64,000 bases of DNA, from positions 274,730 to 338,729 of the forward strand of contig JANQQQ010000016.1 of assembly GCA_028284935.1 (NCBI GenBank), given 5' to 3'. The notes beneath the pieces are model-generated. The model ran no database searches, was not told the DNA's origin, and saw nothing but the letters and a program-made list of their open reading frames with translations. A program made the position numbers and the translations under genes. Positions 25,238-44,840 of the stretch are shown one piece after another (position 1 is the first letter of the stretch; every line of letters begins with the position of its first letter). This DNA comes from Croceivirga sp. GTDB taxonomy: Bacteria; Bacteroidota; Bacteroidia; Flavobacteriales; Flavobacteriaceae.

Positions 25238-25274
25238 AACCTCCCCTCTTTCTGGGAGGGAAATTTCCTTGAAG

Positions 25275-25859: not shown

Positions 25860-26032
25860 CCCTTGTTGTATTGTGTACCTCGTGGCTTTGATGACATTTG
25901 ACGGGAATTCCCTTAAAGTAAGGGTATTCATTCACTCCCAAAATGATTTTTTTGTCTGACGGAATTATCATCCCGTCAGTTTCCATAACCCTTATCGCCT
26001 TTCTTCGCAACATAATTCTTAATCCAAAAGAT

Positions 26033-27142
26033 ATGTTGAAGAAATATCCCATCCTCAAATGGAGTCTCATTGGTATTGCCACCTTGGTTTTGTTATTGTT
26101 TGGTTTTGGTTGGTGGTTTATGGGTTTGCTTCCCAAGCAAGGGGAGCGAGCGGATTGGACCCAAATACAGCCGAGTGAGTTACCCTATCTAACGCAGAAT
26201 GTTCCCCCAAATCGGGGTAGGGTGTTGGCGGTGGTCACCAGTGCCATTACCATGGGCGAAAGTGGGCAACCCACAGGGTACGAACTTACGGAGTTATCAA
26301 GGGCCTACTATGTGTTCGAAGCCAATGGATTTGCAGTAGACATTGCAAGTCCAAAAGGGGGTGAACCCCAAGTGATCATCGACGATGAGGACATGGGGGC
26401 ATTTGATTTCGCTTTTTTGAATGATAGTATTGCCCAATACAAGGCCAAGAATACGATTTCGGTTGAAGACATTATCCCATCCGATTATGAAGCGGTCTAC
26501 TTTGTTGGGGGAAAGGGGGCTATGTTTGATTTCCCTGAGAACAAGGCGATTCAACATATGGTTCGGGAACTATATCAATCCAACAAGGTGATCGGCGCCG
26601 TATGCCATGGTCCCGCCGCCTTGGTCAATGTACAATTGGATAACGGTCAACATCTTCTAAAGGATAAGACCGTGAGCGGATTTACCAATGAGGAAGAGTT
26701 GTTGCTTATCCCTGAGGCAAAAACAATATTTCCTTTCCTGTTACAGGATAAATTGGTGGCCCAAGGCGCCCAGTTCAGCGAAGGGGCCATGTATTTGGAG
26801 CATATAAGCCATGAAGCTAATTTGGTCACCGGCCAAAACCCCTGGTCCACCTGGAAAATGGCGGAGACCATGGTCTGGGAAATGGGATATTCCCCCAAAT
26901 ACAGGTCATTGACAGGGGAAGAGAACGCCGTGAAGGTACTAATGACCTACGAGGCCGAAGGCGCACAAAAAGCAAAGGCATTGATTAAAAGGATGCAGGT
27001 AGAGGAAGGACTTGAGATGGAGAGGATACTCATAGCAAAGCATGGTCTCATTGCTGCCATGCAAGGGAATATTGGGCGGTTTTTTGGATTGGTAGGCTTG
27101 ACCTCCTATGCTAAAAAAATGTCCAAAAGGAGGTCATCTTAA
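26033..27142 (+). CDS. Membrane-anchored DJ-1/PfpI family protein
   Basis: A 369-aa protein from the ATG at 26033. One N-terminal transmembrane helix (about residues 8-30) is followed by a DJ-1/PfpI class-I glutamine-amidotransferase-like domain. The nucleophilic elbow is A-V-C-H-G-P with Cys191, and the G-G-K-G-A-M region lies just upstream. The C-terminal ~100 residues are an additional helical segment. Relatives include deglycase/chaperone-like and glyoxalase-like enzymes. The activity here is not assignable. The membrane anchor is less usual for this family. Confidence 0.82.
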   Translation: MLKKYPILKWSLIGIATLVLLLFGFGWWFMGLLPKQGERADWTQIQPSELPYLTQNVPPNRGRVLAVVTSAITMGESGQPTGYELTELSRAYYVFEANGFAVDIASPKGGEPQVIIDDEDMGAFDFAFLNDSIAQYKAKNTISVEDIIPSDYEAVYFVGGKGAMFDFPENKAIQHMVRELYQSNKVIGAVCHGPAALVNVQLDNGQHLLKDKTVSGFTNEEELLLIPEAKTIFPFLLQDKLVAQGAQFSEGAMYLEHISHEANLVTGQNPWSTWKMAETMVWEMGYSPKYRSLTGEENAVKVLMTYEAEGAQKAKALIKRMQVEEGLEMERILIAKHGLIAAMQGNIGRFFGLVGLTSYAKKMSKRRSS

Positions 27143-27232
27143 AATAACAAACATAAAACCGGCGTATAGGTTCTTAACGTTTGTAGGCTTTGCCTGGATT
27201 TGTATTTTTAGTTTCGTTAAAGCATTGACTTT

Positions 27233-28288
27233 TTGAAGATTTTGGATGTGGCATTGATCGTTCTAAGCAGCGCAGGACTTCTGCACGGGATGCTCTTTGC
27301 CCTATACCTTATCTTTTTTAAAAAGAAAAAAAGCCTCCCTAATTTGCTGTTGGGTCTCATCCTGATTTTTATGGCGTTTCGGATTGGAAAATCCGTATTG
27401 CTCTACTTTGGGAAGGACTTGGAGCCTGTCTTCATTTTTGTTGGGCTGACCTTTCTGCTCTTAATTGGACCCTTGTTGCGTTGGTATTTTTTGGCCATGA
27501 CCACTCCCAATTTTAAACTTCCCGAATCCCGGTTGTTGGAATTAACTCCCTTTGGGTTGATTTTTGGTGCCAGTCTTTTTGTGACCAAAGAATGGTATGA
27601 GAACAGTACTTGGACCATAATTGTTTTTTCGAGCGGTCTTCTCTTTATTTATCTTCATTTTGCGTGTTACATTGGCCTGGCATGGGGAGTCTTTAGGACG
27701 GCCAGAAAAAAACATCCCAAAGAACAACGCACCAAATCGCAACAGGCCATATTCCGTTGGTTACGTTTGTTACTTTTCGGTTTTATACTGATTTGGGGAT
27801 CTTACGTTGTTAACATTTTGGATGAAGCCGTTCCCTATATTATTGGTCCTTTAGTGTATTCCGGAGTAGTGTACTTTTTAAGCTATAAAGCCTTTCAATT
27901 GAGGGCCATTGAATTGGATGGTGGGGTCTTTAAGCAAAACAGCAATAAGCAGCTTTTTACCGAGGTCTCCAAGTTGGTCTTGGGCAACCAATTATATCGT
28001 GAACCCGACCTTTCGTTGTCAAAATTGGGCACATTGCTGGGGAAGAGCACCCAACATATCTCCTTGGTGGTAAACGAATATGCCCAACGCAATTTCAACG
28101 ACTACCTGAACTACCACCGCGTACAGGACGCCAAACAACTGCTGTTGGACGCCGAAAACGAAAAATATACCATTTCCTCCATTGCCTTTGATGTGGGCTT
28201 TAGCAGCCTTTCGTCCTTTAACAGTGCTTTTAAAAAGTTTGAGGGGACCACCCCCTCCACATTTAGAAAGAAGGGGATGTTGAAATAA
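27233..28288 (+). CDS. AraC family regulator with membrane N-terminus
   Basis: A 351-aa protein with a TTG start at 27233. The N-terminal ~230 residues contain about six hydrophobic helices. The C-terminal ~100 residues form an AraC-type double helix-turn-helix (S-L-S-K-L-G-T-L-L-G-K-S near 260, then I-A-F-D-V-G-F-S-S-L-S-S-F-N near 320). Membrane-bound AraC regulators of this layout are common in Bacteroidota and are thought to sense signals in or near the membrane. The target is not visible. TTG is used because the hydrophobic segment starts right after it and no nearby ATG fits. Confidence 0.83.
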   Translation: MKILDVALIVLSSAGLLHGMLFALYLIFFKKKKSLPNLLLGLILIFMAFRIGKSVLLYFGKDLEPVFIFVGLTFLLLIGPLLRWYFLAMTTPNFKLPESRLLELTPFGLIFGASLFVTKEWYENSTWTIIVFSSGLLFIYLHFACYIGLAWGVFRTARKKHPKEQRTKSQQAIFRWLRLLLFGFILIWGSYVVNILDEAVPYIIGPLVYSGVVYFLSYKAFQLRAIELDGGVFKQNSNKQLFTEVSKLVLGNQLYREPDLSLSKLGTLLGKSTQHISLVVNEYAQRNFNDYLNYHRVQDAKQLLLDAENEKYTISSIAFDVGFSSLSSFNSAFKKFEGTTPSTFRKKGMLK

Positions 28289-28346
28289 ATCACTGAATAT
28301 CCAATAATTAGCCTCACCTTTGTGCTTTAGTAACTAAATAAATAAA

Positions 28347-28538
28347 ATGAGTAAAGGAACGGTAAAGTTCTTCAACAACACCAAAGGTTTTGGATTTATC
28401 AATGAGGAAGGTGTTGACAAAGAACATTTTGTGCATGTTACTGGATTAATCGACGAAATTCGCGAAGGTGACCAAGTTGAATTTGATCTAGAGCAGGGAA
28501 AAAAGGGGTTGAACGCAGTAAACGTAAGGGTTATCTAA
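28347..28538 (+). CDS. Cold shock domain protein (CspA family)
   Basis: A 63-aa single cold-shock domain. RNP1 (K-G-F-G-F-I) is near residue 13 and RNP2-like H-F-V-H-V near 27, both typical of small single-stranded nucleic acid chaperones. A terminator follows 22 bp after the stop, so it is monocistronic. A second, near-identical-length copy lies at 49609-49800. Confidence 0.93.
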   Translation: MSKGTVKFFNNTKGFGFINEEGVDKEHFVHVTGLIDEIREGDQVEFDLEQGKKGLNAVNVRVI

Positions 28539-28560
28539 CTTGATAACGTCTAATTTTTTT

Positions 28561-28587
28561 AAGCCCATCTGATTTAGGTGGGCTTTT
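28561..28587 (+). terminator. Terminator of the cold shock gene
   Basis: Hairpin AAGCCCATCT / AGGTGGGCTT (one G-T wobble), loop GATTT, followed by TTTTT. It is preceded by a T/A-rich stretch and could work in both directions. Confidence 0.8.
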
Positions 28588-28648
28588 TTATGTCCAAAAA
28601 CCCCCGGTTGGCAAATAAATCAATTACCTTATGGGCTTAAACCTATAG

Positions 28649-29098
28649 ATGGCAAAATCACAACAAACCTTTAACAAAAGGGAGAAGGAAAAGAAAAGGC
28701 AGAAAAAGCGCGAAGAAAAACAAAAGAAAAAAGAAGCGAGAAGGGCCGAGTCCAAAGAGGGCGATGGGGGCATACCCTTTGCCTACGTTGACAAGTTTGG
28801 CAATCTTACGGATGCTCCTCCCGAACCGTCGGATAATGAAGAAATAGATGCTTCAGAAATTGTTTTGGGTATTCCCCAAAAAGTAGAAGAGGAATTTGAT
28901 CCAATACGCAATGGAAAGGTGGCGTTTTTTGACCACTCCAAAGGATTTGGTTTTATCATGGATACCGAAACCCAAGAAAAACACTTTGTCCATGTTTCTG
29001 GACTGAATGATGAGATCAATGAAAATGATAAAGTGACCTTTGAGCTTGAAAAAGGGCAAAAAGGAATGAATGCGGTTCGTGTAAGTCTTCAGAAATAG
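28649..29098 (+). CDS. Cold shock domain protein with charged N-terminal arm
   Basis: A 149-aa protein. Residues ~8-40 are almost entirely Lys/Glu/Arg and predict a long charged helix or coiled coil. Next comes an acidic linker, then a C-terminal cold-shock domain (G-K-V-A-F-F-D-H-S-K-G-F-G-F-I from ~89). The arm may mediate ribosome or RNA binding or oligomerisation (inference). It has its own start and lies just after the terminator of the smaller cold-shock gene. Confidence 0.88.
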   Translation: MAKSQQTFNKREKEKKRQKKREEKQKKKEARRAESKEGDGGIPFAYVDKFGNLTDAPPEPSDNEEIDASEIVLGIPQKVEEEFDPIRNGKVAFFDHSKGFGFIMDTETQEKHFVHVSGLNDEINENDKVTFELEKGQKGMNAVRVSLQK

Positions 29099-29229
29099 TC
29101 CTTTAACATCCCGTACCCTAGGTTTTAACGTTTAAGGGGACAGCCAATTCGGTTGCACCAGCACTGGCGACACGCAGAATGATATAAGTTTACCTGTACT
29201 ATGTGTACGGCATTACCTGCCTGTAGGTG

Positions 29230-29345
29230 GGTGTGACTTGAGCTTAGGAACGAGGTGAGGCGCCGGCAAAGTTTGTACCGAATTCCCTGAAAAATTTCAT
29301 TTAAAAAAAAGGGTAATGACATTGCCAAAGGCAATCGATGCACGC
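29230..29345 (+). repeat. Intergenic repeat, copy A
   Basis: The first of three diverged copies. It shares A-C-T-T-G-A-G-C-T with copy C and a T/A-rich segment ending GGGTAATGACATTGCC with copy B. The small hairpin ATTGCC-AAA-GGCAAT (29321-29335) recurs in copy B with a different loop. The rest of the 29099-29373 gap shows no gene. Confidence 0.55.
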
Positions 29346-29373
29346 GTGGTGTTTCCTTCTTTTTCGTAAATCA

Positions 29374-30732
29374 TTAGTTCCCATTGGTTTTGGGCATGTC
29401 TGGCAAATGGATTAGAGGTTTCCTATTATTTTCAAAGGCATCCAGCTGTAAGAGCCAGAGTCCAATGCCTGCCGCTCCCTGCATCAGCCCCGTTTGTGCC
29501 GTAAGTTCATTGGGTGAAACGCGATTTTCGGCGTGCACCCATTTAATGGTCTGCCCACTTTCGGTAGCCTTGGCCAAAACCGTTTGGGTAAGCTTTTTTG
29601 AATAGACTTTATAGTTCGAATCACCGGTAATTTGGTGCATCCAAAGATAATATTCCGCTACGCTCACAGCACCGCAACATTTACCTACATTGTTCCAATA
29701 CCCTGGTGTCTGTTTGTTCTCGATGCCTTCATTTAACAAGTGATTTGCAGGGCGAATCATTTTATCCATCCAAACGGTATCACCCGTTGCTTCGTAAAGT
29801 GAGTAATAGAGTCGGGCCACACCGGAAGGCCCGTGGCACCAGCTTAAATAATATAGGTCTTCCCCGCCCGGAAAATGATGGGGAACGTAACCTTTCTCAT
29901 TGGCCAAGCGATCCAGAAAGGAGGAACCCTTGAGGGCAGCATCCAAGTATTTTGGGTTTTTTGTAGTACGGTACATTTCGGAAAGAAAATAGGCCACACC
30001 GGCCGTACCGTGGGAAAAATTATCGTAAAAACGAGGCATCATGGGTGAAAACTTCCAGCGAAAGCCTTGCAAGGTATCAATGGCCACTGCTAGCAGCCCA
30101 TTGGCCGTTTGTTGTGCCAAACGATGCGCTTTTTGATCTGCATAGGTAGCTGCTATATAATTAAAATACAACCCAATACCCGCCGCACCGTATACAATTT
30201 CATTGACCCCTGCCCAATGCATGCCTTTTTCCCCGGTGTTCAGTGTCGCTTGGACAGCAGCGTTTTCCAAGATGTCCAACGTACGTAGTACGGCCTTTTT
30301 GTGTGCTTCTTTTTTGGATAGTTTATAGGTTTCTGAAAGGGTATAGCCCACCCCGGCAATCCCAGTATACAATCCTACATTTTCGGCATCTGGAATAGTA
30401 TCCGGCAGGGTTTTTACAAGATAGTCGGCGCCTTGGGTCGCTTTCCTAAGATAGCTGCTATCTTGCGTGGTATTGAACAACTCAAGATAGAACAATACTA
30501 CACCGGGGGTACCGGCGTACAAGCTTTTATCTGCTTTGGATTCGAGACTATCGGGCAAGACTTTCCAGGCAGTACCCTGTTCCGTAGTATGAACACCCTT
30601 TTCAATAAAGCGCTCGGCTTTTTTTGCGAGGGAAACATAGGTGCTCTCTGGGTCTGCTTTCTTTGGGACATCGGTGCAAGAGCAAATGCACAGCACCGAA
30701 GATAGGGATAAGAAAAAATGCTTTAAAGTCAT
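29374..30732 (-). CDS. LanC-like lipoprotein with Cys-Cys-Gly zinc motif
   Basis: A 452-aa protein starting at the ATG at 30732. The N-terminal 19 residues are a lipoprotein signal (L-C-I-C-S-C). The remainder is the alpha/alpha toroid of the LanC family, with repeated G-x-A-G-V/I-G motifs near 125, 188, 244 and 430. Putative zinc ligands are Cys299 (W-C-H-G-P-S-G) and Cys352-Cys353 (K-C-C-G). NisC has Cys-His at the last pair; ProcM-type lanthipeptide synthetases have Cys-Cys. Known LanC cyclases form thioether rings in the cytoplasm, so an exported one is odd. No precursor peptide gene is seen nearby. It may have another thiol-related role. Confidence 0.83.
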   Translation of the reverse strand: MTLKHFFLSLSSVLCICSCTDVPKKADPESTYVSLAKKAERFIEKGVHTTEQGTAWKVLPDSLESKADKSLYAGTPGVVLFYLELFNTTQDSSYLRKATQGADYLVKTLPDTIPDAENVGLYTGIAGVGYTLSETYKLSKKEAHKKAVLRTLDILENAAVQATLNTGEKGMHWAGVNEIVYGAAGIGLYFNYIAATYADQKAHRLAQQTANGLLAVAIDTLQGFRWKFSPMMPRFYDNFSHGTAGVAYFLSEMYRTTKNPKYLDAALKGSSFLDRLANEKGYVPHHFPGGEDLYYLSWCHGPSGVARLYYSLYEATGDTVWMDKMIRPANHLLNEGIENKQTPGYWNNVGKCCGAVSVAEYYLWMHQITGDSNYKVYSKKLTQTVLAKATESGQTIKWVHAENRVSPNELTAQTGLMQGAAGIGLWLLQLDAFENNRKPLIHLPDMPKTNGN

Positions 30733-30784
30733 TGGAGTACCCTTTTTTATGGATACTAAAGATAAAAAATAGGGAAGAGGGTCT

Positions 30785-30995
30785 CTAAACAGGCTTTGGC
30801 TCGCCATGGGTAGGCTATAGTGCTGGCCAAGTTTGAACTACACTTTCTAAAAAAGCATTCTCAAAATCTTCTTTAAAAAGGTAGTGCCATTGCCGCAGGC
30901 AATCAATCAATACCAATAAGACAAATAGCAAAACATGAATAAATACTTTTACACAACTCAAGGTAAGGGGGGAGGGTAATGGGTGTGGAAAGGAT
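30785..30995 (+). repeat. Intergenic repeat, copy B (longest)
   Basis: It lies in the 359-bp gap before the 205-aa gene. The left half shares AAAATCTTCTTTAAAAAGGT with copy C and the hairpin ATTGCC-GCA-GGCAAT (30889-30903) with copy A. The right half (30943-30995), a purine-rich segment with G-G-G-G-G-G-A-G-G-G-T-A-A-T-G, recurs in copy C. Copy B therefore looks like the fullest version, with A and C as partial copies. Confidence 0.6.
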
Positions 30996-31091
30996 TTACA
31001 AAAGTAAGAATCGAAAACTCGGTGTAAAGATATTGTGACACTTAATAATGGTATAGAATTTGGTATTTAGCAAGGTATCAAAGTAGAACTG

Positions 31092-31709
31092 ATGATTGAG
31101 TTATTTAAAAAACCAGTACTATTGGTTGTTTTCCTTTGTAGTTTAAACCCTTTGGTCGCACAGAAAAAGTCATTCAATAAAGGATATATTATTGAAAAGG
31201 GCGGTGACACCATAGGGGGGCTTATCAAGGACCGTTCTCCGGAACCCTTTGTAAACCTGTACAATAAGATCAGGTTTAAGCGGGAGGGTAGAACGCGCAC
31301 AAGAAAATATGGACCTGATGATATTGCCGGTTACGGTTATGAAGACCAGCATTTTGTCACCATGCCCGTAAGGGAGGAAAATGCCTTTTTTAAGTTTAGG
31401 TATTATACGGATGCCAACGCTCCACGGGTATTTTTGAAACGCATTAAACAATCTGGGGGACTCATCTATTTTGAACAGCTCTTTGTTCATGATGATAATG
31501 ACTATTTGGATTTCATCCCATTCTTTTATCGCCCGGGCCGTTCGGATCTAGTCCGCGTCACCCAGGGTATTTTTGGGTTTCGAAAGAAGCGGCTTACGGC
31601 TTATTTTTATGATTGCCCGGCTTTGATTACCGAAATCAATAACCCAAATTCAAATATTCGAACGGTTGATGAACTGTATAGGTTCTGTACTTCCCATTGT
31701 AAGCTCTAA
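31092..31709 (+). CDS. Secreted protein of unknown function
   Basis: A 205-aa protein with a signal peptide ending in L-V-A-Q (about residues 1-23). Its mature part opens with the pattern G-Y-I-I-x-K-G-G-D-T-I-G-G-L-I, seen in a number of flavobacterial exported proteins. It is beta-rich and basic (G-R-T-R-T-R-K), with two cysteines close to the C-terminus (C-T-S-H-C). No enzymatic motif is recognised. It stands alone between repeat copies B and C. Confidence 0.7.
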   Translation: MIELFKKPVLLVVFLCSLNPLVAQKKSFNKGYIIEKGGDTIGGLIKDRSPEPFVNLYNKIRFKREGRTRTRKYGPDDIAGYGYEDQHFVTMPVREENAFFKFRYYTDANAPRVFLKRIKQSGGLIYFEQLFVHDDNDYLDFIPFFYRPGRSDLVRVTQGIFGFRKKRLTAYFYDCPALITEINNPNSNIRTVDELYRFCTSHCKL

Positions 31710-31820
31710 AAAACAAAATGCGGTTAGTTGATGTAAGGAATCCAAAGGTAAATGCGACTCCAAAGCAATTTTACATAATGTCGAATTATGGTATTACAAG
31801 ATGAACCATAATGTACCGTT

Positions 31821-31975
31821 ATGTAACTTGAGCTTTGGTAAAAGCAAAAGTTGGCACCTAACTTCATAAAAATTTCTGCTAAAAATCTTCTTTAAAAAGG
31901 TAATGGAACACTTTTTACACGACCCGAGGTAGGAGGGGAGGGTAATGTGTGTGGAATGGATTGTTCGGTAAAAAT
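31821..31975 (+). repeat. Intergenic repeat, copy C
   Basis: It lies in the 321-bp gap before the DNA methyltransferase gene. It shares ACTTGAGCT with copy A, AAAATCTTCTTTAAAAAGGT with copy B, and the right-hand element (CTTTTTACACGACCCGAGGT followed by a purine-rich G-G-A-G-G-G-T-A-A-T-G) with copy B. The middle hairpin of copies A and B is missing. Confidence 0.55.
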
Positions 31976-32030
31976 GTAATTAAACTAATTACTAAATTGC
32001 TAGTCAATCGACCACAAAGATTTAAAAGTA

Positions 32031-33599
32031 ATGCCCCAAAAAAAAAGGCAAATTCCAGTAATCGATTTGTTCGCCGGACCCGGTGGATTAGGTGAAGGGT
32101 TTTCATCGTTATTTAGAAACAGTAGGAGATTATTTGACATAAAGCTTTCTATTGAAAAGGATGAAAATGCACATAGAACGTTGGAGCTCAGAAGCTTTTA
32201 CAGGCAATTTAACCCTGATAAAGTTCCTAAGGATTACTATTCTTTATTGAAATCTAAAAGCCTGAAAGAAAGAGAAGTCTTAAAAGATAAATTATTTACC
32301 AACTATTCGGATGAGGCTAAAATTGCAGAAAAGGAAGCGTGGCATGCAGAATTGGGAGGTGATAATTTTCCAAACAACAAAGTTGATTCCAGAATTTCTC
32401 AGGCATTGAATGGAAGTAAAGAATGGGTTTTGATTGGAGGACCACCTTGCCAAGCATATTCACTGGTTGGAAGATCTAGAGTGGGGGGAATCGATGAACA
32501 AGATCATAGAGTATTCTTATATCAAGAATATTTGAGAATTATTGCCAAACATCATCCTTCCATTTTTGTAATGGAGAATGTGAAAGGGTTGCTTTCAGCA
32601 AAAATTGAAGATAAAAAGATCTTTCCTAAAATTTTGGAAGACCTCCGAAGACCCAGTCAAATATTTCCAGATTTGAATTCCCCAGATTACCAAATTTATT
32701 CGTTAGTTAAAGAAGAAGTTAAGGATGGAAGGGATTATTTGATTAAGTCAGAGAAATACGGAGTACCACAAAAAAGGCATAGGGTTATTCTTCTAGGAGT
32801 TAGAAGTGATATTGTCAATAAACCTAAAACTCTTGTCCCTTGGAAAGAGTTTACCTCCTTGGAGTCAGTGATAGGAAAATTACCAAAAGTTAGAAGTGGT
32901 CTAAATAGAAGATTTGTTAGAAGTGAGGTGCTCAAGAGTGGAAAAATCCGTAGGGTTTATGAAAAGGTAATTGATTCAAATGAAAATTGGGAAGAAACAA
33001 TTAATTCATTCAAGTCCGAAGCTTTCTATAAATATTCAGGGTTGAATGGAGAGTTTAAGTTACTTAAATCTCCGATTGATGATATGGGGGCCGAATACGT
33101 TAAATGTCCAAAATCCATAAGCAAAGACCATGTTCTAAAAGATTGGTATCTAGATAAGAGATTAGATGGTGTCTCAAACCATCAATCAAGAAGCCATCTT
33201 ATTCAAGATTTAAAAAGATACCTTTTCGCAAGCAGTTTCGCATTGGAATATAATAGTTTTCCAAGGATGGCTGATTACCACAACGAAGTATTCAATCTTC
33301 TGCCCGATCATAAAAATGTTAATTCAGGAAAATTTACAGATAGATTTAGAGTTCAAATGCCTGACATTCCAGCCACCACGATTACAAGTCATATTTCAAA
33401 AGATGGTCATTACTTTATACATTACGATCCCGAGCAATGTAGAAGTTTAACGGTAAGAGAGGCTGCAAGAGTGCAAACTTTCCCAGACAACTATCTATTC
33501 ATGGGTAGTAGAACTCAACAGTTTCACCAGGTTGGAAATGCCGTCCCCCCTTATTTAGCGAAGCAAATTGCAGAAATAGTGGAACAACTACTCAGTTAA
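32031..33599 (+). CDS. DNA (cytosine-5) methyltransferase
   Basis: A 522-aa Dcm-type enzyme. Motif I is D-L-F-A-G-P-G-G-L-G-E-G-F (~12-24), motif IV G-G-P-P-C-Q with catalytic Cys140, motif VI M-E-N-V (~180), motif VIII Q-K-R-H-R (~246) and motif X N-A-V-P-P-Y (~503). The target recognition region is between VIII and IX (~270-440). About 50-60 extra residues separate motifs I and IV. Codons are AGA-rich and AT-rich compared with neighbours, a sign of transfer. It lies 102 bp upstream of the GHKL ATPase cluster and probably protects self DNA for it (inference). Confidence 0.93.
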   Translation: MPQKKRQIPVIDLFAGPGGLGEGFSSLFRNSRRLFDIKLSIEKDENAHRTLELRSFYRQFNPDKVPKDYYSLLKSKSLKEREVLKDKLFTNYSDEAKIAEKEAWHAELGGDNFPNNKVDSRISQALNGSKEWVLIGGPPCQAYSLVGRSRVGGIDEQDHRVFLYQEYLRIIAKHHPSIFVMENVKGLLSAKIEDKKIFPKILEDLRRPSQIFPDLNSPDYQIYSLVKEEVKDGRDYLIKSEKYGVPQKRHRVILLGVRSDIVNKPKTLVPWKEFTSLESVIGKLPKVRSGLNRRFVRSEVLKSGKIRRVYEKVIDSNENWEETINSFKSEAFYKYSGLNGEFKLLKSPIDDMGAEYVKCPKSISKDHVLKDWYLDKRLDGVSNHQSRSHLIQDLKRYLFASSFALEYNSFPRMADYHNEVFNLLPDHKNVNSGKFTDRFRVQMPDIPATTITSHISKDGHYFIHYDPEQCRSLTVREAARVQTFPDNYLFMGSRTQQFHQVGNAVPPYLAKQIAEIVEQLLS

Positions 33600-33646
33600 A
33601 TAATTTACTACATAATTAATATATAGTTATTATTATATAATAAATA

Positions 33647-33676
33647 TTGACTTATATAGTATTTTTTTTAATTTAG
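33647..33676 (+). promoter_or_regulatory. Possible promoter of the GHKL ATPase operon
   Basis: TTG at 33647-33649 and TAATTTAG at 33669-33676 (one mismatch to TAnnTTTG), with 19 bp between them, lie in a very AT-rich 100-bp gap, 26 bp before the small charged-protein gene. This would let the operon be expressed separately from the methyltransferase. Confidence 0.4.
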
Positions 33677-33701
33677 TGAAAATATTTATCATAAGTGTAC
33701 T

Positions 33702-33926
33702 ATGAAGAGCAAGAGAGATAGGTTTGAAGATGTGGCCAGTAAGAGAGTTCAATATATTATCGATAAACTAGAGCTTCTTGGAAACTGCGCAAATCGAAAC
33801 AACTATGAATTCAATGAAGAAGATGTTAAAAAGATGTTTTCCGTTATTAAAGATCAATTGAAAAAGACCGAGTTAAAATTCAATGAGGAGATAGCAAAAA
33901 AAACAAAGAATACGTTTAAATTTTAA
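33702..33926 (+). CDS. Short charged protein preceding the GHKL ATPase
   Basis: A 74-aa, highly charged, mainly helical protein. It has the pattern R-F-x-x-V-A-x-x-R-V, then L-G-N-C-A-N-x-x-N-Y and E-D-V-K-K-M-F, which I associate with short helper proteins found near methylase and mobile-element genes (recollection, not verified). There is no catalytic motif. It could be an accessory or regulatory subunit of the system. It ends 10 bp before the ATPase start codon. Confidence 0.7.
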   Translation: MKSKRDRFEDVASKRVQYIIDKLELLGNCANRNNYEFNEEDVKKMFSVIKDQLKKTELKFNEEIAKKTKNTFKF

Positions 33927-33936
33927 ATTATTGGTA

Positions 33937-35904
33937 ATGTTAAAATGGGGGTCTTTTATAAAGGAAAAGGATGGTGAATGGGATGGCTTAAACAATGCTG
34001 CAATCTATAGTTTTAATAGCAATATTATCAATTCATTTGTCAGAGAAATGTTTCAAAATTCCATTGATGCAAGAGACAAAAACTTATCGCCAGATCCAAA
34101 AACTGAAAAAATACCTCCTCTAAAAATCAGAATTAATTACAAGGAAATTCTTCAGAATGAATTTCCGGATTTCAATGGTTTCTATGGGATATTCAAAAAA
34201 ATTGCTGGTTCTCAACCAAATAAACAACATGCTAAATTTTTTAATAATGCATTTAAAGTTTTGGGCGACAAGAGGAAAATACCATTGTTTGTTTTCGAAG
34301 ATTATAATACCTATGGTCTTTCGGGCTCAGATGATGATCCGGAGAGTTCTTTTAATGCCTGTGTCATATCTGAGGGTATTTCCGTAAATAAGGATGCCAC
34401 TTCTGGCGGAAGCTTTGGTATTGGCAAGAACGCCATATATGGTTTATCGAGTCTTAGAACTGTTTTCTACTCAAGTTTGGATACTAGTGGCAATTATATC
34501 TTTCAAGGGAAATCAAAACTGGCATCTTATTACGATGATAATGGCAAAACGCGTGAACATAAAATTTACTGCGGAGAAAAAAAAGATTTTCGTTCGATCA
34601 GGGATATTAAGAGTTTGAGTGACAGTAATAGGCAAATATTTTATAGGGATCAACCTGGACTTTCACAATATGCAGTGTGCCCTATTGAAAATGATAATTG
34701 GCCAGAAGAATTTGTGAAAGCAATTCTTAGAAATTATTGGATGCTTTTGGAAAAAGGAGAATTAGAAGTTGAGTTGTTACAACAAGATAAATTGAGTTAT
34801 GTTTTGGCTAAAAATTCTCTGGAAAAACTTATGACTGAGTTTTTTTCGCCAGAAAATTATGAGCCCGAAGATATTTCACCAAAAGGAAATCCATTCGAAT
34901 ACTACAACTGCTATAAAAATGGAACTTGTATACAAATGCATGACCTAGGTCAATTAGGTAATGTCCGCTTTTTTTACAACGAAATAGCAGATAGGAATAC
35001 CAATGCAATTGCATATTTACGAAATGATATGGTAGTATATGCAAAATCTGTTCATGGATTTGGGTCCATAGGATATTGTGGGGTCTTTATGTGCGATAGT
35101 AATCAGGGTAATGAAATATTGAGGGCAATGGAGCCTCCTACCCATGACTCATTCAGCCCAGATAGGCTACAGGAAAAATTAGAAGGTTACAGTTCGAGTG
35201 ATGGTCGTGAAATTTTAAATCAGATTAGATTACTTGTCAAAAGTGGACTTCAAACAATAGTAGATAAATATACCAAGCCTGTTGAAGACATCCCATGGCT
35301 GGATAATTTACTCTCATCATTGAAGGGTGCCGCTGGTATAGGAGCCGGTGACAGAACAAATGAAGAGTCAGAAAACGAAACTACTGAGAAAATAGGTAAA
35401 GATGTTAAGAAAAAATTGACGTTTAGTTCTCAAAATAGAAATTCATTAATAAATGATGACAATGGTGAAATTGAAGATAATGGTTCGGGCGATCCTGCAC
35501 CCGGTCCAGGTCCAAGACCCCCAAGGCCAGAACCAAGACCAGGACCTAAACCGGGGCCAAAACCAATTAAGAAAGCCAAAATTCGAAGTAGAATTTTTAA
35601 AACCGGAAAAGAAAAAAAGATTGGAAGCAAAAAATATGCTTCTTACAGGATTCATTTAACTTCTGAAAGGGAAATCCAAAACGCAGATATTGTTATTTCG
35701 CAACAAGGTGACACAGGAAATGTTGGAATGTTTGAGATAGGTGATGTCTTTGTTTTAGGAGGCCCACAACTTGATTTTTCTGAAGAAAAAAATAAACAAT
35801 CAGAAATAATCGCATACAGAATAAAGTCACTCACAGTTCCTAGTGTTATTGAGTTTTATGTTAATGAGCCATACAAAAGCAGTTTCAAATTAATTAATTT
35901 ATAA
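33937..35904 (+). CDS. GHKL (Hsp90/MutL-fold) ATPase with proline-rich linker
   Basis: A 655-aa protein (ATG at 33937). The GHKL ATP-binding motifs are clear: an N box R-E-M-F-Q-N-S-I-D-A with Glu37, Asn41 and Asp44; a G1-like D122-x-N-T-x-G127-L; and a G2/lid G-G-S-F-G-I-G-K (157-164). A probable S5-type transducer region follows to ~480. After a linker ending in a Gly/Pro/Arg/Lys repeat (~518-545) comes a beta-rich C-terminal domain (~550-655). It is not a sensor kinase (no H box) and lacks MutL C-terminal motifs. The closest concept is the paraMORC-type ATPases described next to DNA methylases in predicted restriction systems. Confidence 0.85.
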   Translation: MLKWGSFIKEKDGEWDGLNNAAIYSFNSNIINSFVREMFQNSIDARDKNLSPDPKTEKIPPLKIRINYKEILQNEFPDFNGFYGIFKKIAGSQPNKQHAKFFNNAFKVLGDKRKIPLFVFEDYNTYGLSGSDDDPESSFNACVISEGISVNKDATSGGSFGIGKNAIYGLSSLRTVFYSSLDTSGNYIFQGKSKLASYYDDNGKTREHKIYCGEKKDFRSIRDIKSLSDSNRQIFYRDQPGLSQYAVCPIENDNWPEEFVKAILRNYWMLLEKGELEVELLQQDKLSYVLAKNSLEKLMTEFFSPENYEPEDISPKGNPFEYYNCYKNGTCIQMHDLGQLGNVRFFYNEIADRNTNAIAYLRNDMVVYAKSVHGFGSIGYCGVFMCDSNQGNEILRAMEPPTHDSFSPDRLQEKLEGYSSSDGREILNQIRLLVKSGLQTIVDKYTKPVEDIPWLDNLLSSLKGAAGIGAGDRTNEESENETTEKIGKDVKKKLTFSSQNRNSLINDDNGEIEDNGSGDPAPGPGPRPPRPEPRPGPKPGPKPIKKAKIRSRIFKTGKEKKIGSKKYASYRIHLTSEREIQNADIVISQQGDTGNVGMFEIGDVFVLGGPQLDFSEEKNKQSEIIAYRIKSLTVPSVIEFYVNEPYKSSFKLINL

Positions 35905-35907
35905 AAT

Positions 35908-36717
35908 ATGTTTTCAGGAGGTTTTTCTTTTCCACATCCAGTTTTAGGTTTAGGAGATGATATAAGTGGGGCGTTTAATTGCTCCATGGACATTGAGAGA
36001 GATGCGAATCAAAGGGCCATCAGATTTCACAATATTAAGTTCGAAATTACCAATGACTACATAAATACTATTATTCAGGATGGGGAGGCAGGTATTTTGA
36101 TGAAAGTGTATTGTAGCTCTACTTTTAAAACATGGACTTTCCTTAACCCAAAAGACTATTTTCTTATTAATGAAAACGACCTTTACAATAAGGTTGAAAT
36201 AAGTGTTTTTGTGGTAACAAAAACTCAAATTGAACAGTACTCAGATAACAGCTTTAATAAGCAATTCGATGGATTTACCTTTGGTCTGAATGCCAAGGAA
36301 GTCTTGGCGGTAACGGGAAATATAACCATGAAGATTGAAAAAGTTGATGAGAAATTAGGCTTGGGCAATATTTTTAAATTCTTTTCCCATAGTTCTGACA
36401 AACCTCTTCAATTCACCTACCATCAAAACAAAATTCACATTATGTACCCGGTCGATATTAATGGGGAACATCCACCCAATGCCCTATTCAAAACTTCACC
36501 TTGGACCGCCTATAACATGTTTATAGTACCGGCTTTGAGCGGAGCTTTTGATTTTGTGGAAGAGGCTAGGGAAGAAGCTGAAGGATACGAGTGGTATGCT
36601 GTTATTTTAGATTTATTACCCGAAGACCAATGGCAGCGCGATTCATTCGTGAATGCGCAGCTGATCTTAAAAAAAGGGATACCAGTTCTTAATTCATATA
36701 ATGAACTAACTCAATGA
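35908..36717 (+). CDS. Unrecognised protein of the GHKL/methylase cluster
   Basis: A 269-aa protein starting 3 bp after the ATPase stop. It is mostly beta-strand-like in its first 170 residues (alternating hydrophobics, few helices), with a more conserved-looking C-terminal part containing H-P-P-N-A-L-F-K-T-S-P-W and an acidic stretch E-E-A-R-E-E-A-E. No nuclease motif (PD-(D/E)xK, HNH, GIY-YIG) is apparent. It overlaps the next gene by 4 bp. Position and tight spacing imply that it works with the ATPase, perhaps as an adaptor or DNA-structure sensor (inference). Confidence 0.8.
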   Translation: MFSGGFSFPHPVLGLGDDISGAFNCSMDIERDANQRAIRFHNIKFEITNDYINTIIQDGEAGILMKVYCSSTFKTWTFLNPKDYFLINENDLYNKVEISVFVVTKTQIEQYSDNSFNKQFDGFTFGLNAKEVLAVTGNITMKIEKVDEKLGLGNIFKFFSHSSDKPLQFTYHQNKIHIMYPVDINGEHPPNALFKTSPWTAYNMFIVPALSGAFDFVEEAREEAEGYEWYAVILDLLPEDQWQRDSFVNAQLILKKGIPVLNSYNELTQ

Positions 36718-37439
36718 GTATGAAGCAAGAGATAAAATTACTTACCAATAATTGTTGTGACAATTTATTACAATTTCAAACAGAGCCCTCTATTAGGGAA
36801 CGATATAATTCTCATAAATATCCGGAAGATTATCTTGAAAAAATGGATTTTTCAACTAAATACGGAATAGACGAGGACATAATACTTTCTCCAAAACCCG
36901 AACACGATGTAGAAAGTAGTATTGCAATATTTACTGAATTGAAAGATTTAGATAGGGTACAGGCAAATGACAGGAGATTATGGGTGTCATTAACACATGG
37001 TAGGTTTTATCATTATACCAAGGAAAGATGGGCTTATAATAAGGACTATTCTAGAAATGCTTTAATACGAAGATTCCATTTCGAAGGGTCGAGTCTAGAA
37101 GCTAGAATGAGAAATAGCATCTCAAGACTATGGTGGGCAGCCAAGATAACATACGATGAAAATCTGAATGATGCCTTTGAACTGACTAAATTACTTTGGT
37201 CTAAGCAAGACCTAATTCAGAACGTGGTGGAAAGAAGTTATGGCACCTATGAAAACGTGGTGCGTGGAATTTTAGAGATATACAAGGAAAATTCTCAACT
37301 CTCTGAAAGTGAATTAAGACACTTATATACAGGGTTGAATGCTATTGGAGGAGTTAAAATACTTTCTTTTTTAACAGTAAATGAAATAAAGGCGGAAATA
37401 AAAAATATTGCCAATTATAAAAACATAACTCTAAACTGA
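36714..37439 (+). CDS. DUF6339-like protein of the GHKL/methylase cluster
   Basis: A 241-aa, mostly helical protein. The segment L-W-V-S-L-T-H-G-R-F, the R-W and R-R-F-H-F-E-G-S-S stretch and the S-R-L-W-W-A-A-K-I-T-Y-D-E motif (~residues 84-148) match my recollection of the DUF6339 family, whose function is unknown. No nuclease or ATPase motif is seen. Its ATG overlaps the preceding stop (ATGA), and the next gene begins 1 bp after its own stop, so it is part of one translationally coupled run. Confidence 0.82.
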   Translation: MSMKQEIKLLTNNCCDNLLQFQTEPSIRERYNSHKYPEDYLEKMDFSTKYGIDEDIILSPKPEHDVESSIAIFTELKDLDRVQANDRRLWVSLTHGRFYHYTKERWAYNKDYSRNALIRRFHFEGSSLEARMRNSISRLWWAAKITYDENLNDAFELTKLLWSKQDLIQNVVERSYGTYENVVRGILEIYKENSQLSESELRHLYTGLNAIGGVKILSFLTVNEIKAEIKNIANYKNITLN

Positions 37440-37440
37440 A

Positions 37441-37698
37441 ATGACAATACAAGCAACAGCCTATAAAATGGCTCAAAGAGGTTTGGCCGATTTAAAGGTT
37501 GCAATCCATTTGATATTAAGTGAGGCACCTGAGGAAGGCTTAAGGAACGTTGATATTGGACGAATTCTAGGTGTCAATTATGGGCATAGTGGGAGGCATC
37601 AAGATCATATTCCAAGAACCATGCTAGAAATGATGAGAGCTGAAGGAGTTGTAGTCCAGGATGAAGTTTCTAAAAAATGGAAGCTAAAGAATATTTAA
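37441..37698 (+). CDS. Small winged-helix-like protein closing the cluster
   Basis: An 85-aa protein with a helix-turn-helix-like core (G-L-R-N-V-D-I-G-R-I-L-G-V-N-Y, residues ~33-47), a following helix (P-R-T-M-L-E-M-M-R-A-E-G) and a short beta wing (V-V-Q-D-E-V-S-K-K-W-K-L). This layout is that of a compact winged-helix DNA-binding protein. Within the operon it could be a transcriptional controller or a DNA-recognition subunit. It starts 1 bp after the DUF6339-like gene. Confidence 0.75.
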   Translation: MTIQATAYKMAQRGLADLKVAIHLILSEAPEEGLRNVDIGRILGVNYGHSGRHQDHIPRTMLEMMRAEGVVVQDEVSKKWKLKNI

Positions 37699-37863
37699 AG
37701 AGAATTGGCAAGAAGAAAATGCGGGCCGGCGAGGGTGTGAATTTGTGACTTAACGGAAAGAACGATTGCCCCTCGGCTTTGTGTTAGGGCATGAAATGCC
37801 CAAATAGCAAAGCTATTAAGACACAAAGAGAGCTTGGAAGCATATTTTCTTCTTGATTTTTTG

Positions 37864-37889
37864 TTTCTTTTTTATCAAGAAAAAAGAAA
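37864..37889. terminator. Inverted repeat / terminator after the cluster
   Basis: TTTCTTTTTT and AAAAAAGAAA form a 10-bp inverted repeat around ATCAAG, about 165 bp past the last cluster gene. It contains no G/C-rich stem, so termination would be weak. It may instead mark the right edge of the inserted segment. Confidence 0.35.
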
Positions 37890-37907
37890 GATTGTAATTT
37901 TAACTTA

Positions 37908-38138
37908 ATGGATTTTTGGACAATAGGAGAAAGAATACTTACAATTTCGGGACTAATAGGTCTTGTGATAACGGTGTTTTCCTATTTTAAAAAAAATCAA
38001 TTTTTCTTCATGTTACAAGTTTTTTCAAAAACACTTAAACCATTGAAAATCAGTGATATTTTGTCTATTTCTATGGACTTCCCTTTTTTAAAAAAACCTG
38101 TTGGCGCACGAAAGCACGATTATTTAAACGGATTTTAA
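37908..38138 (+). CDS. Possible truncated small membrane protein
   Basis: A 76-codon frame starts at the ATG at 37908. Residues 1-30 look like a real membrane-protein N-terminus (polar start, a helix of about 18 hydrophobic residues, then F-K-K-N). The remaining ~45 residues have no recognisable character, as if the original gene were cut and fused to unrelated DNA. It lies just after the inverted repeat. It may be a remnant or chance. The rest of the 37699-38183 gap shows only a short palindrome (GGGCATGAAATGCCC). Confidence 0.35.
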   Translation: MDFWTIGERILTISGLIGLVITVFSYFKKNQFFFMLQVFSKTLKPLKISDILSISMDFPFLKKPVGARKHDYLNGF

Positions 38139-38183
38139 GAAGTCTTACTTTTATTCTTATGTCAAATAAAATGACAACACCAT

Positions 38184-38840
38184 CTATTTTCTTGAGATAG
38201 TAAACCGATAGTTTCCAGTGATATAAAAAAACACCAACCGATTTTCTGGCATCACCACGGGGTTCCCATTGCGGTCAAGGGTATCAATGCCCTCCAAGGG
38301 TACTCCAAAGACCGCTTTCACTGCTACGGAAAAATCCCCAATGCCCAGGCCCATCTCGGGGATGACCGAGACACTTTGATTGGCTTCGGTCCGCAGGTCC
38401 CCATCCCTATCAACCACGGTTCTCGTTTCCAAAAAATTATAGCCTACGCCTATGGCCACATAGGGGTCAAAACCTTTCCATTCAAAGGTGTAGGTCGGTT
38501 TTAAAGCGATGATACTGGAATACGTCCGCTGGGGATCAATGACATTGGTACCATCCTCCAGTTCATTTGAAGTGTCCAATGCAAATAGATCCAACCGCTG
38601 AAATACGGAGGTGGACAGGTCTAGGCCCAACCCCCAGTGTTCGTTAAACCCGTAGTGCATCCCTCCCTGAAAGATAAAGCGTAAGGGTGCACGAACGGCG
38701 CTATCGGGCAAAAGCCCATCATCGGAGTTAAAGGTCCATCCCAAACCTGCTCCAAACTCGGCTTTAAGCTGCGCCGTCGTTAAAAAGGAGCTACCCAGTG
38801 CCAAGACAAGGAAGAGCCCAATTTTTGGAAAAATATTCAT
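38184..38840 (-). CDS. Outer-membrane beta-barrel protein
   Basis: A 218-aa protein with a signal peptide (cleavage after ~T-T-A-Q, residue 23). The rest is alternating hydrophobic/polar strands typical of small eight-stranded barrels (OmpA/OmpX-like fold), with G-x-G-x-G-W near the start, I-G-V-G-Y-N-F in the middle and Y-R-F-T-I-S-R at the C-terminus, close to the usual terminal aromatic motif. Function unknown. It is monocistronic, and normal base composition resumes here. Confidence 0.82.
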   Translation of the reverse strand: MNIFPKIGLFLVLALGSSFLTTAQLKAEFGAGLGWTFNSDDGLLPDSAVRAPLRFIFQGGMHYGFNEHWGLGLDLSTSVFQRLDLFALDTSNELEDGTNVIDPQRTYSSIIALKPTYTFEWKGFDPYVAIGVGYNFLETRTVVDRDGDLRTEANQSVSVIPEMGLGIGDFSVAVKAVFGVPLEGIDTLDRNGNPVVMPENRLVFFYITGNYRFTISRK

Positions 38841-39056
38841 GGTTTTAGGGGATTATTGAGAAAATCCACGCCTTGTTTTTAGTCCATTATGATTTTCCAC
38901 TTTTGCTTTTTTAGGTAAGATACACTTTGCCCGTAAAGGTTGTCATTAAGGTAAAAAACAACTCGTTGGATTGGAAAAGTGGTTTTTGAACATATTTGTT
39001 GGAAGTGACTTGCAACGGAGTCCGGTCAAAACAAGTGAAATGCGTTGATATGGATA

Positions 39057-39077
39057 GGCCGGCCTTCCGGGCCGGCC
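39057..39077 (-). terminator. GC-rich hairpin after the YiaA/B gene
   Basis: GGCCGGCC, loop TTCCG, GGCCGGCC: an 8-bp perfect stem 12 bp past the minus-strand stop at 39090. On that strand no T run follows, so it may stabilise the 3' end or terminate weakly. Confidence 0.5.
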
Positions 39078-39089
39078 ATTTTAGTGACA

Positions 39090-39551
39090 TTATTTATGGT
39101 CCATTTTTTCATCAATGAACTTTATGTCACGGGTATTTTTTTGAACCGCGACCGCTGCAAATAGACTCAGGGTGAATGACATGCCATAGAACCCCTTCTC
39201 GCTTAAATCCATATCGGCATTCCACAAACCTATGGTCAGTAGCAAGATAGCCGCTATGGTCGTAAACCAGCTAATACCATAATAGGCCTCAGTAACAGGT
39301 AACCCTTCTTGCCTATCCCTGACACTTTTTTGTACGGATACCACGGAGAACAGTCCAAATAGCAATAAGGTAAAGTAATATCCTTTTTCGTTGAGCCACA
39401 TATTGGCATTCCATAATCCTACACAGTACGAAATCATTCCAATACATAAGGCGGTCCATGAGGCAGAAACAAATGCCGAGGTTGGCCTTAGATCGAACGG
39501 TTTCCTTTTTTCAAGCAATTCCTCTTTCTCTTTAAAAGACTGATTTTCCAT
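39090..39551 (-). CDS. YiaA/YiaB family inner-membrane protein
   Basis: A 153-aa protein from the ATG at 39551. Two related halves each carry two hydrophobic helices and the family G-L-W-N-A-[ND]-M-[WD]-L-[NS]-E-K-G-[YF]-Y/G motif (near residues 49 and 112), followed by S-V-Q-K-S-V-R-D or A-V-Q-K-N-T-R-D. This internal duplication is the hallmark of YiaA/B proteins. The physiological role is unknown. An earlier in-frame start would extend it into the divergent gene and is rejected. Confidence 0.85.
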   Translation of the reverse strand: MENQSFKEKEELLEKRKPFDLRPTSAFVSASWTALCIGMISYCVGLWNANMWLNEKGYYFTLLLFGLFSVVSVQKSVRDRQEGLPVTEAYYGISWFTTIAAILLLTIGLWNADMDLSEKGFYGMSFTLSLFAAVAVQKNTRDIKFIDEKMDHK

Positions 39552-39707
39552 TATTGAAAAATTTAGAATTAATATGGGGGCAAAGTTGGAACCAATATCC
39601 TCTAGGAGAAAGACGGGATTTTTAAAAAAATTACGATATAAAATGGAAATAAATATTTTGAATATATTGTTAATCAATTTTTTATGTTGTATTAAAATAA
39701 CGATATA

Positions 39708-41168
39708 ATGAGTGAAGTAGGCACTATTTTTCAAGTACTTGCACCCGCAGAGAAAAGGGAATTCGTCTCGTTTCTGAAGAAGCGAAACAAACGCAACTCC
39801 ACCAAAAACATAGCGTTTTTGAGACTTTTGGAAGAGGGAAAAACAAAAGACCTTGATGTTGAATTGTATGGTTTTCCATCAAAGGCCGCCTTCCATGTAC
39901 TACAAAAACGGGTGAAGGATGCCTTAATTGAATTTTTGGCGAGCAAAGCTTTTGGGAAAGAGTCCTCGGAGGAAATGGAAATCTTGAAATTGCTCTTGGC
40001 AAGTAGAATTTTGTTTGAGCAAGGTGCTGTTAAGGCTGCCATACGGACATTGGACAAAGCAGAACGTAAGGCCAACTATATTGATGGGCACTCCATTCTC
40101 AATGAGATTTTCCAGACCAAGATCCAATACGCCCATTTAAACCCCAAATGGCATCTTGATCTACTTATTGAAGCGTTTGAGGCCAACCAAAGGCTTCACC
40201 AAAGGGACATTCATTTGAATATGGCCTATGCCACCATAAAGAGTGAAATGAACGCTTCGACAAGGGAATCCATTAATGAAATCATTAAGAGGGTATTCCA
40301 GGAATTTTCTTTGAAAATCAACAGCGATTTAACGTATAAATCACTCTACCAGCTCATGGTAATTACCGCATCTTCAGCAAAGCTTCAGAACGACTTTTAT
40401 ACCGTTTCGTCCTACATAGGGGATATTTTCAATGCGATGCAAGCCAAGGGCCCAATTCCCCCAAAGTACCGCTATTATCATCAGAATATGCTGTATTTGA
40501 TGGCCGTAACGGAGTTTAGGAACAAACGGTTTTTGAGTTCAAAAAAGTTGCTGCACGACCTTGAAACCATTGCCCAGCAGGGCCAAAAGAAATTTTCAGC
40601 GGTTTTTGGTGAAAAAGTAGGGGTATTGGCCGCCCTAGTCGAACTTTATACGGGCGGGATTGACCACGCCAAAAACATTTTGGTAAAGATAAAAAGACCG
40701 TCCCTGAATAAGGATTTGGTGCTCTTGATGTGCTTGTTTTTGGAAATGAAGTTTCATGAGGCTTATACTATTTGTAAGGGCTTTACCAAATCAGATGATT
40801 GGTATGAAAGGAAAATGGGTTGGACTTGGGTACTTAAAAAGAACGTTATTGAACTTCTTCTCCTCATAGAATTGGACAAACTGGAGTTGGTGATGAACAG
40901 ACTGGAGAATTTCAAAAGAAAATTTGGTAAAAAATTGGTGGAGGTCGGTGAAGGACGGGTGCTTACCTTTTTAAAGATGGTGGAACAGTTCTATGAAAAC
41001 CCTGTGGTTGTAAAAACCTCAGAATTTGAAACCCATGTAGAGCATTCATTCGAATTTATAGGCCGGGAACAGGAGGATATTTTTGTAATGAGCTTCTTTG
41101 CCTGGTTACGCTCAAAAATGCAAAATAAGAACCTATATGAGGTCACCTTGGAAATGGTCACCCTATAA
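39708..41168 (+). CDS. Large helical-repeat protein of unknown function
   Basis: A 486-aa soluble protein, almost entirely helical, with no signal peptide. It opens with a basic segment (K-K-R-N-K-R-N-S-T-K). Its regular helix pairs with A/L-x-x-x-L spacing suggest TPR-like solenoid structure, but no consensus TPR stands out. It has no catalytic motifs. It may be a scaffold or regulator. Divergent from the YiaA/B gene; no family name recognised. Confidence 0.78.
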   Translation: MSEVGTIFQVLAPAEKREFVSFLKKRNKRNSTKNIAFLRLLEEGKTKDLDVELYGFPSKAAFHVLQKRVKDALIEFLASKAFGKESSEEMEILKLLLASRILFEQGAVKAAIRTLDKAERKANYIDGHSILNEIFQTKIQYAHLNPKWHLDLLIEAFEANQRLHQRDIHLNMAYATIKSEMNASTRESINEIIKRVFQEFSLKINSDLTYKSLYQLMVITASSAKLQNDFYTVSSYIGDIFNAMQAKGPIPPKYRYYHQNMLYLMAVTEFRNKRFLSSKKLLHDLETIAQQGQKKFSAVFGEKVGVLAALVELYTGGIDHAKNILVKIKRPSLNKDLVLLMCLFLEMKFHEAYTICKGFTKSDDWYERKMGWTWVLKKNVIELLLLIELDKLELVMNRLENFKRKFGKKLVEVGEGRVLTFLKMVEQFYENPVVVKTSEFETHVEHSFEFIGREQEDIFVMSFFAWLRSKMQNKNLYEVTLEMVTL

Positions 41169-41189
41169 AAGAGGAGACTTGAACAGGAC

Positions 41190-41894
41190 TTATTCTAGAT
41201 GGTCAGTACCTAAATACTTGTCCTCCTTGTTATAGTACCACTTTCGGGTCTTGGGCATCTTGATCCCATTGATTTCTTCCATTCCACTGAGTAGAATGTA
41301 CTCCCCATCATTTTTGGATTCTTCATGATAGAACTGATAAACCTCCATGGCGTAGGTCTCTGGGTCAAAATAGAAATACCATGTATCTTCACCCACCTCG
41401 GAATCATAGGTAACTTTTACTTTAAGATACGTTTTGCCCTTAAAAGTGGTCTTGGTCACTTTGTCGTGAATTCGAGTACCCTGATCTTTGAGTTTCATGG
41501 GTAGGCCGTAGAGGTAAGTATAATAATTCCGATACATGGTGCCTCGGTCACAGCTCAGGCGAAACTTTTCCGCATCTTCCTTGGAAAAGGTTGTTGACCC
41601 ATTCAATGAAATTTCGCAATTGTCCTTTTCCAAGCGGTACGCATAGGAGTCCCCATCTTTGGATACTTCCAATACAAACTTGGAACGAGGAAGATCAATA
41701 TGCACGGTACTCCGTCGTTCCGAGGAATTGGGGGTCTCCATGGTCACATTTAGGGTTCCCGTAAAGGAGGCCCAGGTCCCATTGGGGTCATGAAAGGCAA
41801 TGGCTTTGTCCACTACTTCAGGTCCCGTGGATTCCTGTGCCAAGATGGACTGACTGATGCAAAGTACTATTAAGAAAAAGAATCCAACTTTCAT
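41190..41894 (-). CDS. DUF6503-like exported protein
   Basis: A 234-aa protein with a cleavable signal peptide (S-Q-S-I-L-A-Q). The mature part resembles the outer-membrane-lipoprotein-sorting (LolA-like) fold of DUF6503: V-V-D-K-A-I-A-F-H-D-P-N-G-T-W near residue 29, an antiparallel sheet, then D-T-W-Y-F-Y-F-D-P-E-T-Y-A-M near 168. The function is unknown. Its ATG overlaps the stop codon of the upstream phosphate-transporter gene by 4 bp, so it is coupled to that gene. Confidence 0.8.
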   Translation of the reverse strand: MKVGFFFLIVLCISQSILAQESTGPEVVDKAIAFHDPNGTWASFTGTLNVTMETPNSSERRSTVHIDLPRSKFVLEVSKDGDSYAYRLEKDNCEISLNGSTTFSKEDAEKFRLSCDRGTMYRNYYTYLYGLPMKLKDQGTRIHDKVTKTTFKGKTYLKVKVTYDSEVGEDTWYFYFDPETYAMEVYQFYHEESKNDGEYILLSGMEEINGIKMPKTRKWYYNKEDKYLGTDHLE

Positions 41895-44176: not shown

Positions 44177-44302
44177 ACTGAATTTTGAAAGTACGCAAAA
44201 ATGATATTATAAATTGTTTGTGACGTTAAAATAAGGTTATGAAACCTTACTCATGAACCAACTTAGGGAAGTTGGCACACCACTATTCGAAGAAGAAAAG
44301 CC

Positions 44303-44692: not shown

Positions 44693-44840
44693 CAAATTTT
44701 GAAAGTGCAAATAAAAGAAAGTTACGTTAAGGAATAGTTATGTCCAGGTTAATTCAGTGCACTTATTTCCATTTACAAGGTATTCTTTACTACCGGTTTG
44801 CTGCCCTAATACTGTATCTTGCGCAGATAAATTTTTTAGG

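Follow-up and report, generated by a model that had tools for sequence, protein, structure and literature searches.

What is a DNA methylase gene doing beside a putative GHKL-type ATPase and a row of small proteins in which no nuclease can be recognized? This question is raised by a six-gene block in a 64,000-nucleotide stretch of the genome of a Croceivirga sp. (contig JANQQQ010000016.1, positions 274,730 to 338,729), which we refer to as the window. The six open reading frames (ORFs), called here the methylase, S, A, B, C and W in their order, all lie on the plus strand and span 32031–37698, and an ORF check of the window confirmed these coordinates and the gaps of 10, 3, −4 and 1 bp between the last five. 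The initial annotation had proposed the block as a candidate undescribed defence system. Our analysis supports the defence reading, but "undescribed" does not hold because A, B and C match the PADLOC candidate system PDC-M33. We consider it most likely, with moderate confidence, that the block would provide an ATP-gated, DNA-engaging module coupled to restriction-modification (RM) and without a recognized nuclease of its own.

A matched the PADLOC model PDC-M33A (PDLC04582) over residues 4–620 with an E value of 3.7e-80, B matched PDC-M33B (PDLC04583; E 1.5e-33) and C matched PDC-M33C (PDLC04584 to PDLC04587; best E 2.5e-44), whereas the window methylase matches other PADLOC models. The A-B-C trio is therefore already known as a listed defence candidate, which the initial annotation had missed, together with the fact that the 74-amino-acid (aa) protein S is a conserved family. 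The PADLOC PDC entries are reportedly candidates from a guilt-by-embedding preprint. According to PMC12988326, most of them have no experimental validation, and our literature searches found no publication naming PDC-M33 or DUF6339.

How general this arrangement is was seen from a profile scan of genome contigs, in which the N box and the G box of A were the two search patterns. The scan matched 572 stretches and gave 265 relatives, from which we retained the 80 best; viral contigs added five, making 85 loci. A is at least 590 aa long in 79 of these, 47 of which extend for 8 kb or more to either side and are called well-flanked. Across the 85 loci, Bacteroidota included, the same-strand order (S)-A-B-C is seen again and again. 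B was present in 76 of the 79 loci, C in 77 and S, just upstream of A, in 36; in the window, A, B and C adjoin on one strand with gaps of 3 and −4 bp. More than ten bacterial phyla have A-B-C as a tight unit, and the record titles of the relatives include Bacteroidota, Aliifodinibius, Pseudomonadota, Bacillota, Patescibacteria, Thermosipho, Planctomycetota, Nitrospirales, Eisenbacteria, Omnitrophota, Dadabacteria, Cyanobium and Olsenella (the phylum names are in part those to which we presume the relatives belong). Plasmid copies add Deinococcus, Arthrobacter and haloarchaea; in the last, A and C were matched and the ORF between them was unmatched by the B profile. Among the relatives of the window the distribution is patchy, with PDC-M33A in 3 of 198 genomes (its own included) and DUF6339 in 5 of 198, and PDC-M33A was found in 9 of 395 sampled Bacteroidota genomes.

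Two copies of A and C with a C5-methylase between them were observed on a Halomicrobium plasmid (L030; 3884–7510 and 13902–17642), where DUF1998 and PLD-type genes are nearby, and in a Cyanobium locus (L115), where the copies are on opposite strands. PDC-M33 genes were also present on viral-classed contigs (L128–L132). On some of these a C5-methylase or a serine-recombinase-like gene accompanies them, and mobile elements may therefore carry the module.

The relation between the module and the methylase was examined through protein distances. Across the 61 loci with a linked C5-methylase, the distances of A, B and C correlated with each other (A-B 0.77, A-C 0.81, B-C 0.74) but hardly with those of the methylase (0.19–0.20). 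Because of this difference, the distances show A, B and C as one evolving unit and the methylase as a largely exchangeable partner. In the 28 loci with S, the correlation was 0.53 between S and A and 0.19 between S and the methylase, and S probably belongs to the same unit.

The three nearest loci are L048, L050 and L052. Against the Altibacter locus L052, the methylase, S and W of the window are close (57%, 84% and 70% identity) and A, B and C are distant (31%, 27% and 39%), yet against L048 all shared proteins have similar identities (44–61%), which points to an exchange of A-B-C within a conserved frame. The only genes common to the window (22000–48000), L048, L050 and L052 were the methylase, S, A, B and C, with W in two, and no restriction enzyme is in this common set.

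S is a conserved family and a frequent fourth member of the module, with homologues located directly 5' of A in Deinococcus, Planococcus, Priestia, Arthrobacter and others. No PADLOC model matched S or W, and W had no match in Pfam or NCBIfam either. W was seen only in close relatives, with two matches among the 85 loci (70% identity to a 58-aa ORF in L052 and 48% to a 79-aa ORF in L048).

A is composed of a GHKL-type part, a Pro/Gly-rich linker and a C-terminal part. The motifs E37xxxN41xxD44, D122xxTxG127 and GGSFGIGK are present, and E37, N41, D44, D122, G127, G158, G161, G163, K164, R362, M365, E399 and H403 were invariant in all 79 A proteins; the conservation of the N and G boxes is partly by construction because both served as search patterns, which the other residues did not. 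A kept N-box glutamate (79/79) fits ATP hydrolysis rather than a kinase. When A was compared by profile with eight known GHKL sets, six gave E values of 0.007–0.053, the best being MutL (0.007), and HtpG aligned with its motifs in register (E 0.015). These six were better than all 16 unrelated families taken as negatives (E 0.11 or worse), and the positive control, MutL against HtpG, reached a probability of 94.7%. The GHKL assignment of the initial annotation is retained for the motifs, to which the profile comparison adds weakly; no Pfam HATPase match was found in A. In L041, L050 and L111, A is broken into more than one ORF, and these copies may be decayed or mis-sequenced.

For the 269-, 241- and 74-aa proteins, profile searches now give B as PDC-M33B, C as PDC-M33C and S as a conserved family, and the DUF6339 likeness noted earlier for C proved to be a full match to PF19866 (E 4.2e-48). 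In the model of B, the first part is rich in beta structure and the end is helical (pLDDT 91.9, pTM 0.67); the model of C is mostly helical (pLDDT 94.7, pTM 0.91). Structure comparison found no clear structural relative of either, so even these confident models name no effector. In L035 (7673–9052) and L040 (10917–12329), C was observed to be enlarged to 460–471 aa by about 220 extra residues, and the A beside it falls about 100 residues short of the window protein.

The methylase, called Dcm-type in the initial annotation, is a C5 DNA_methylase by its Pfam match (PF00145; E 3.4e-46), and its PADLOC matches include DrmMII (E 1.4e-90) and MTase_II (E 2.2e-76) among the best 25 of 59. PCQ, ENV and QxRxR, which we take to be its catalytic motifs, look intact by eye. 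Methylases at the same position are 57% (L052), 51% (L050) and 45% (L048) identical to it, and the 4.2-Mb genome has two C5-methylases, the window copy included. A C5-methylase is near 61 of the 79 loci and 41 of the 47 well-flanked ones, and 20 of the 61 methylases lie within 200 bp of the A-B-C block on the same strand. In favour of a module that works without a linked nuclease, 21 of the 47 well-flanked loci have a methylase and no recognized restriction nuclease. The initial annotation had seen no recognizable nuclease in the cluster, and searches of Pfam, PADLOC and NCBIfam likewise assigned none of S, A, B and C to a nuclease family. They also recognized no restriction endonuclease among the eight proteins at 31092–38138 (for the methylase, among the matches listed), where unknown types are possible.

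Based on these observations, we propose that a horizontally acquired S-A-B-C module sits behind a C5-methylase, with W at the end. A would be a hydrolysing GHKL ATPase that dimerizes on ATP like MutL, Hsp90 or MORC and clamps DNA, and B and C, often with S, would be constant partners of A in a single complex. The linked methylase would mark self by methylation; the complex would engage DNA that is without the mark, or that is flagged by the restriction system, and stop it. Since no nuclease domain was recognized in S, A, B and C, the block may consist of holding or silencing the DNA; alternatively, the complex may hand the DNA over to a nuclease whose gene is close by or at another site. In its boldest form, which we regard as doubtful, PDC-M33 would be a nuclease-free restriction system in which 5-methylcytosine marks self and unmarked DNA is trapped and silenced by an ATP clamp of the MORC/Hsp90 kind together with its two fixed partners. 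If so, it would be a prokaryotic counterpart of MORC silencing.

Several observations weigh against the proposed module. The profile link of A to the GHKL families is weak (probabilities 0.1–5.5%), with two of the eight sets, compared with a shorter query, at E values of 0.35 and 0.64, no better than unrelated families, and A aligned with four MzaB-like proteins only outside the GHKL motifs (E 0.034). Low as it is, the correlation between A and the methylase was above that of every one of the 199 permutations, and it reached 0.36 when the 28 loci with S were taken. Some copies neighbour an AIPR gene or methylases of the Dam type or type I, and no C5-methylase is annotated in the stretch. In L050, A is divided between two ORFs, and keeping the best 80 of 265 relatives biases the sample to the query. 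Finally, a restriction nuclease was recognized in 24 of the 47 well-flanked loci, a floor because unclassified neighbours hold more (HpaII, BpuJI and HNH families) that are unassigned to loci. With a restriction nuclease in about half of these loci, the module may be an add-on.

An alternative is a nuclease helper, with A, as a looping or loading factor of the MutL kind, activating a linked RM nuclease (of the Vsr, EcoRII, MutH/Sau3AI or PLD type), the nuclease of the window working in trans or being lost. This possibility, which we regard as rather unlikely, agrees with Iyer 2008 (PMC2292703), where MORC and paraMORC proteins encoded in RM operons were proposed to loop DNA. It is kept alive by Vsr, which was within 2 kb of 31 of the 61 ABC-linked methylases compared with 5 of 30 control C5-methylases (p 0.003), although this control is small and confounded, as it holds only the best-scoring Bacteroidota methylases and the genome of L168 has PDC-M33 a few kb away. 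Neighbour clusters of EcoRII-C (11), PLD-ResIII (7) and MutH (6) families among the 85 loci, assigned by Pfam on one representative each, and a PLD-domain gene directly 3' of C in L049 also fit. However, the nucleases vary between loci and none is common to the window and its three nearest loci; L048, L050 and L052 each have a Vsr upstream, but there is none at 25001–45000 of the window, and the only Vsr of the genome is about 160 kb distant.

The poor tracking of A-B-C by the methylase would also be expected if the module were an independent defence system hitch-hiking beside RM, for example an abortive system triggered by restriction inhibition, with the methylase not part of it. The failure to find a C5-methylase in 6 of the 47 well-flanked loci, copies on Lactococcus, Ligilactobacillus and E. 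faecalis plasmids with no annotated C5-methylase, and the contrast between the two groups of proteins against L052 favor this explanation; the strong linkage, both in the well-flanked loci and in the close same-strand methylases, argues against it, and we consider it unlikely. Vsr, found in 33 of the 79 loci and commoner than in the control, could instead indicate a non-defence accessory for repairing T:G mismatches that arise from 5-methylcytosine, together with Vsr or an HhH-GPD glycosylase. HhH-GPD proteins are in 8 of the 85 loci (Pfam on one representative), and A is like MutL in kind. This is very improbable, as copies that neighbour methylases of the Dam type or type I, or that have no annotated methylase, offer no evident 5-methylcytosine to repair and the occurrence in Bacteroidota genomes is patchy.

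The proposed ATP-gated module was also compared with described systems. It resembles paraMORC2 in its GHKL motifs, in an invariant downstream ExxxH and in RM neighbourhoods with cytosine methylases and Vsr (PMC2292703). In that account the hallmark of paraMORC2 is an ExxxH strongly conserved within the S5 domain; E399xxxH403 (79/79) fits this by description and lies in a part of A that may be an S5 domain. SFII helicases, present in about 70% of MORC neighbourhoods (Iyer 2008, PMC2292703), are no fixed part of window-type loci. The Shedu type I-D protein VcSduA (paraMORC3) is likewise a GHKL ATPase in defence (PMC12137116), but has its own DUF4263 nuclease, for which A had no Pfam match at E up to 1. 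GHKL-related proteins are found by C5-methylases and Vsr in HEF_HK/Response_reg_2 pairs as well (PMC8011034), whereas A had no HEF_HK match in Pfam at E up to 1. With type II RM the cluster shares the DNA methylase. Our literature searches gave no published account of S as a fourth protein, of the exchangeable methylase or of the match to the paraMORC2 signature, nor of the set of genes, free of any restriction enzyme, that the nearest loci share.

The block differs from its flanks in composition, as the initial annotation had noticed. Its GC content is 0.349, whereas 189 overlapping windows of equal length from the rest of the 64 kb range between 0.391 and 0.461. AGA makes up 53 of its 94 Arg codons, and nine genes on its flanks use AGA for 16 of 124 (Fisher p 9e-12). 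Because of the low GC and the AGA excess, the six-gene block is, by its composition, foreign and horizontally acquired. ARAGORN found no tRNA gene in the 64-kb window. A 38-bp AT-rich stretch 3' of the cluster (37852–37889) has one exact copy elsewhere in the genome (C35:180838–180875) and a second at 82% (C36:238853–238897).

Table 1. Coordinates of the methylase and PDC-M33 genes, and of motifs in A, within the window.
Feature	Position	Strand	Remark
Methylase	32031..33599	+	522 aa, C5-cytosine DNA methyltransferase
S	33702..33926	+	74 aa, charged; frequent fourth member of module
A, GHKL-type (PDC-M33A)	33937..35904	+	655 aa from ATG; TTG at 33931 gives 657 aa
A, N box, E37 to D44	34045..34068	+	one of the two search patterns
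A, G box GGSFGIGKNA, residues 157–166	34405..34434	+	one of the two search patterns
A, E399xxxH403	35131..35145	+	compare ExxxH of paraMORC2
B (PDC-M33B)	35908..36717	+	269 aa; PADLOC match
C, DUF6339 (PDC-M33C)	36714..37439	+	241 aa; Pfam and PADLOC match
W	37441..37698	+	85 aa; winged-helix-like, by eye only
Foreign low-GC block	32031..37698	+	GC 0.349; AGA 56% of Arg codons

The module occurs in many bacterial phyla beside many kinds of restriction systems. It offers a clean case for the role of bacterial MORC-like ATPases in RM, a question raised in 2008 (PMC2292703). The nearest loci reduce it to a small set (the methylase with S, A, B and C, and in some cases W), so that experiments on it would face no interference from a known restriction enzyme.
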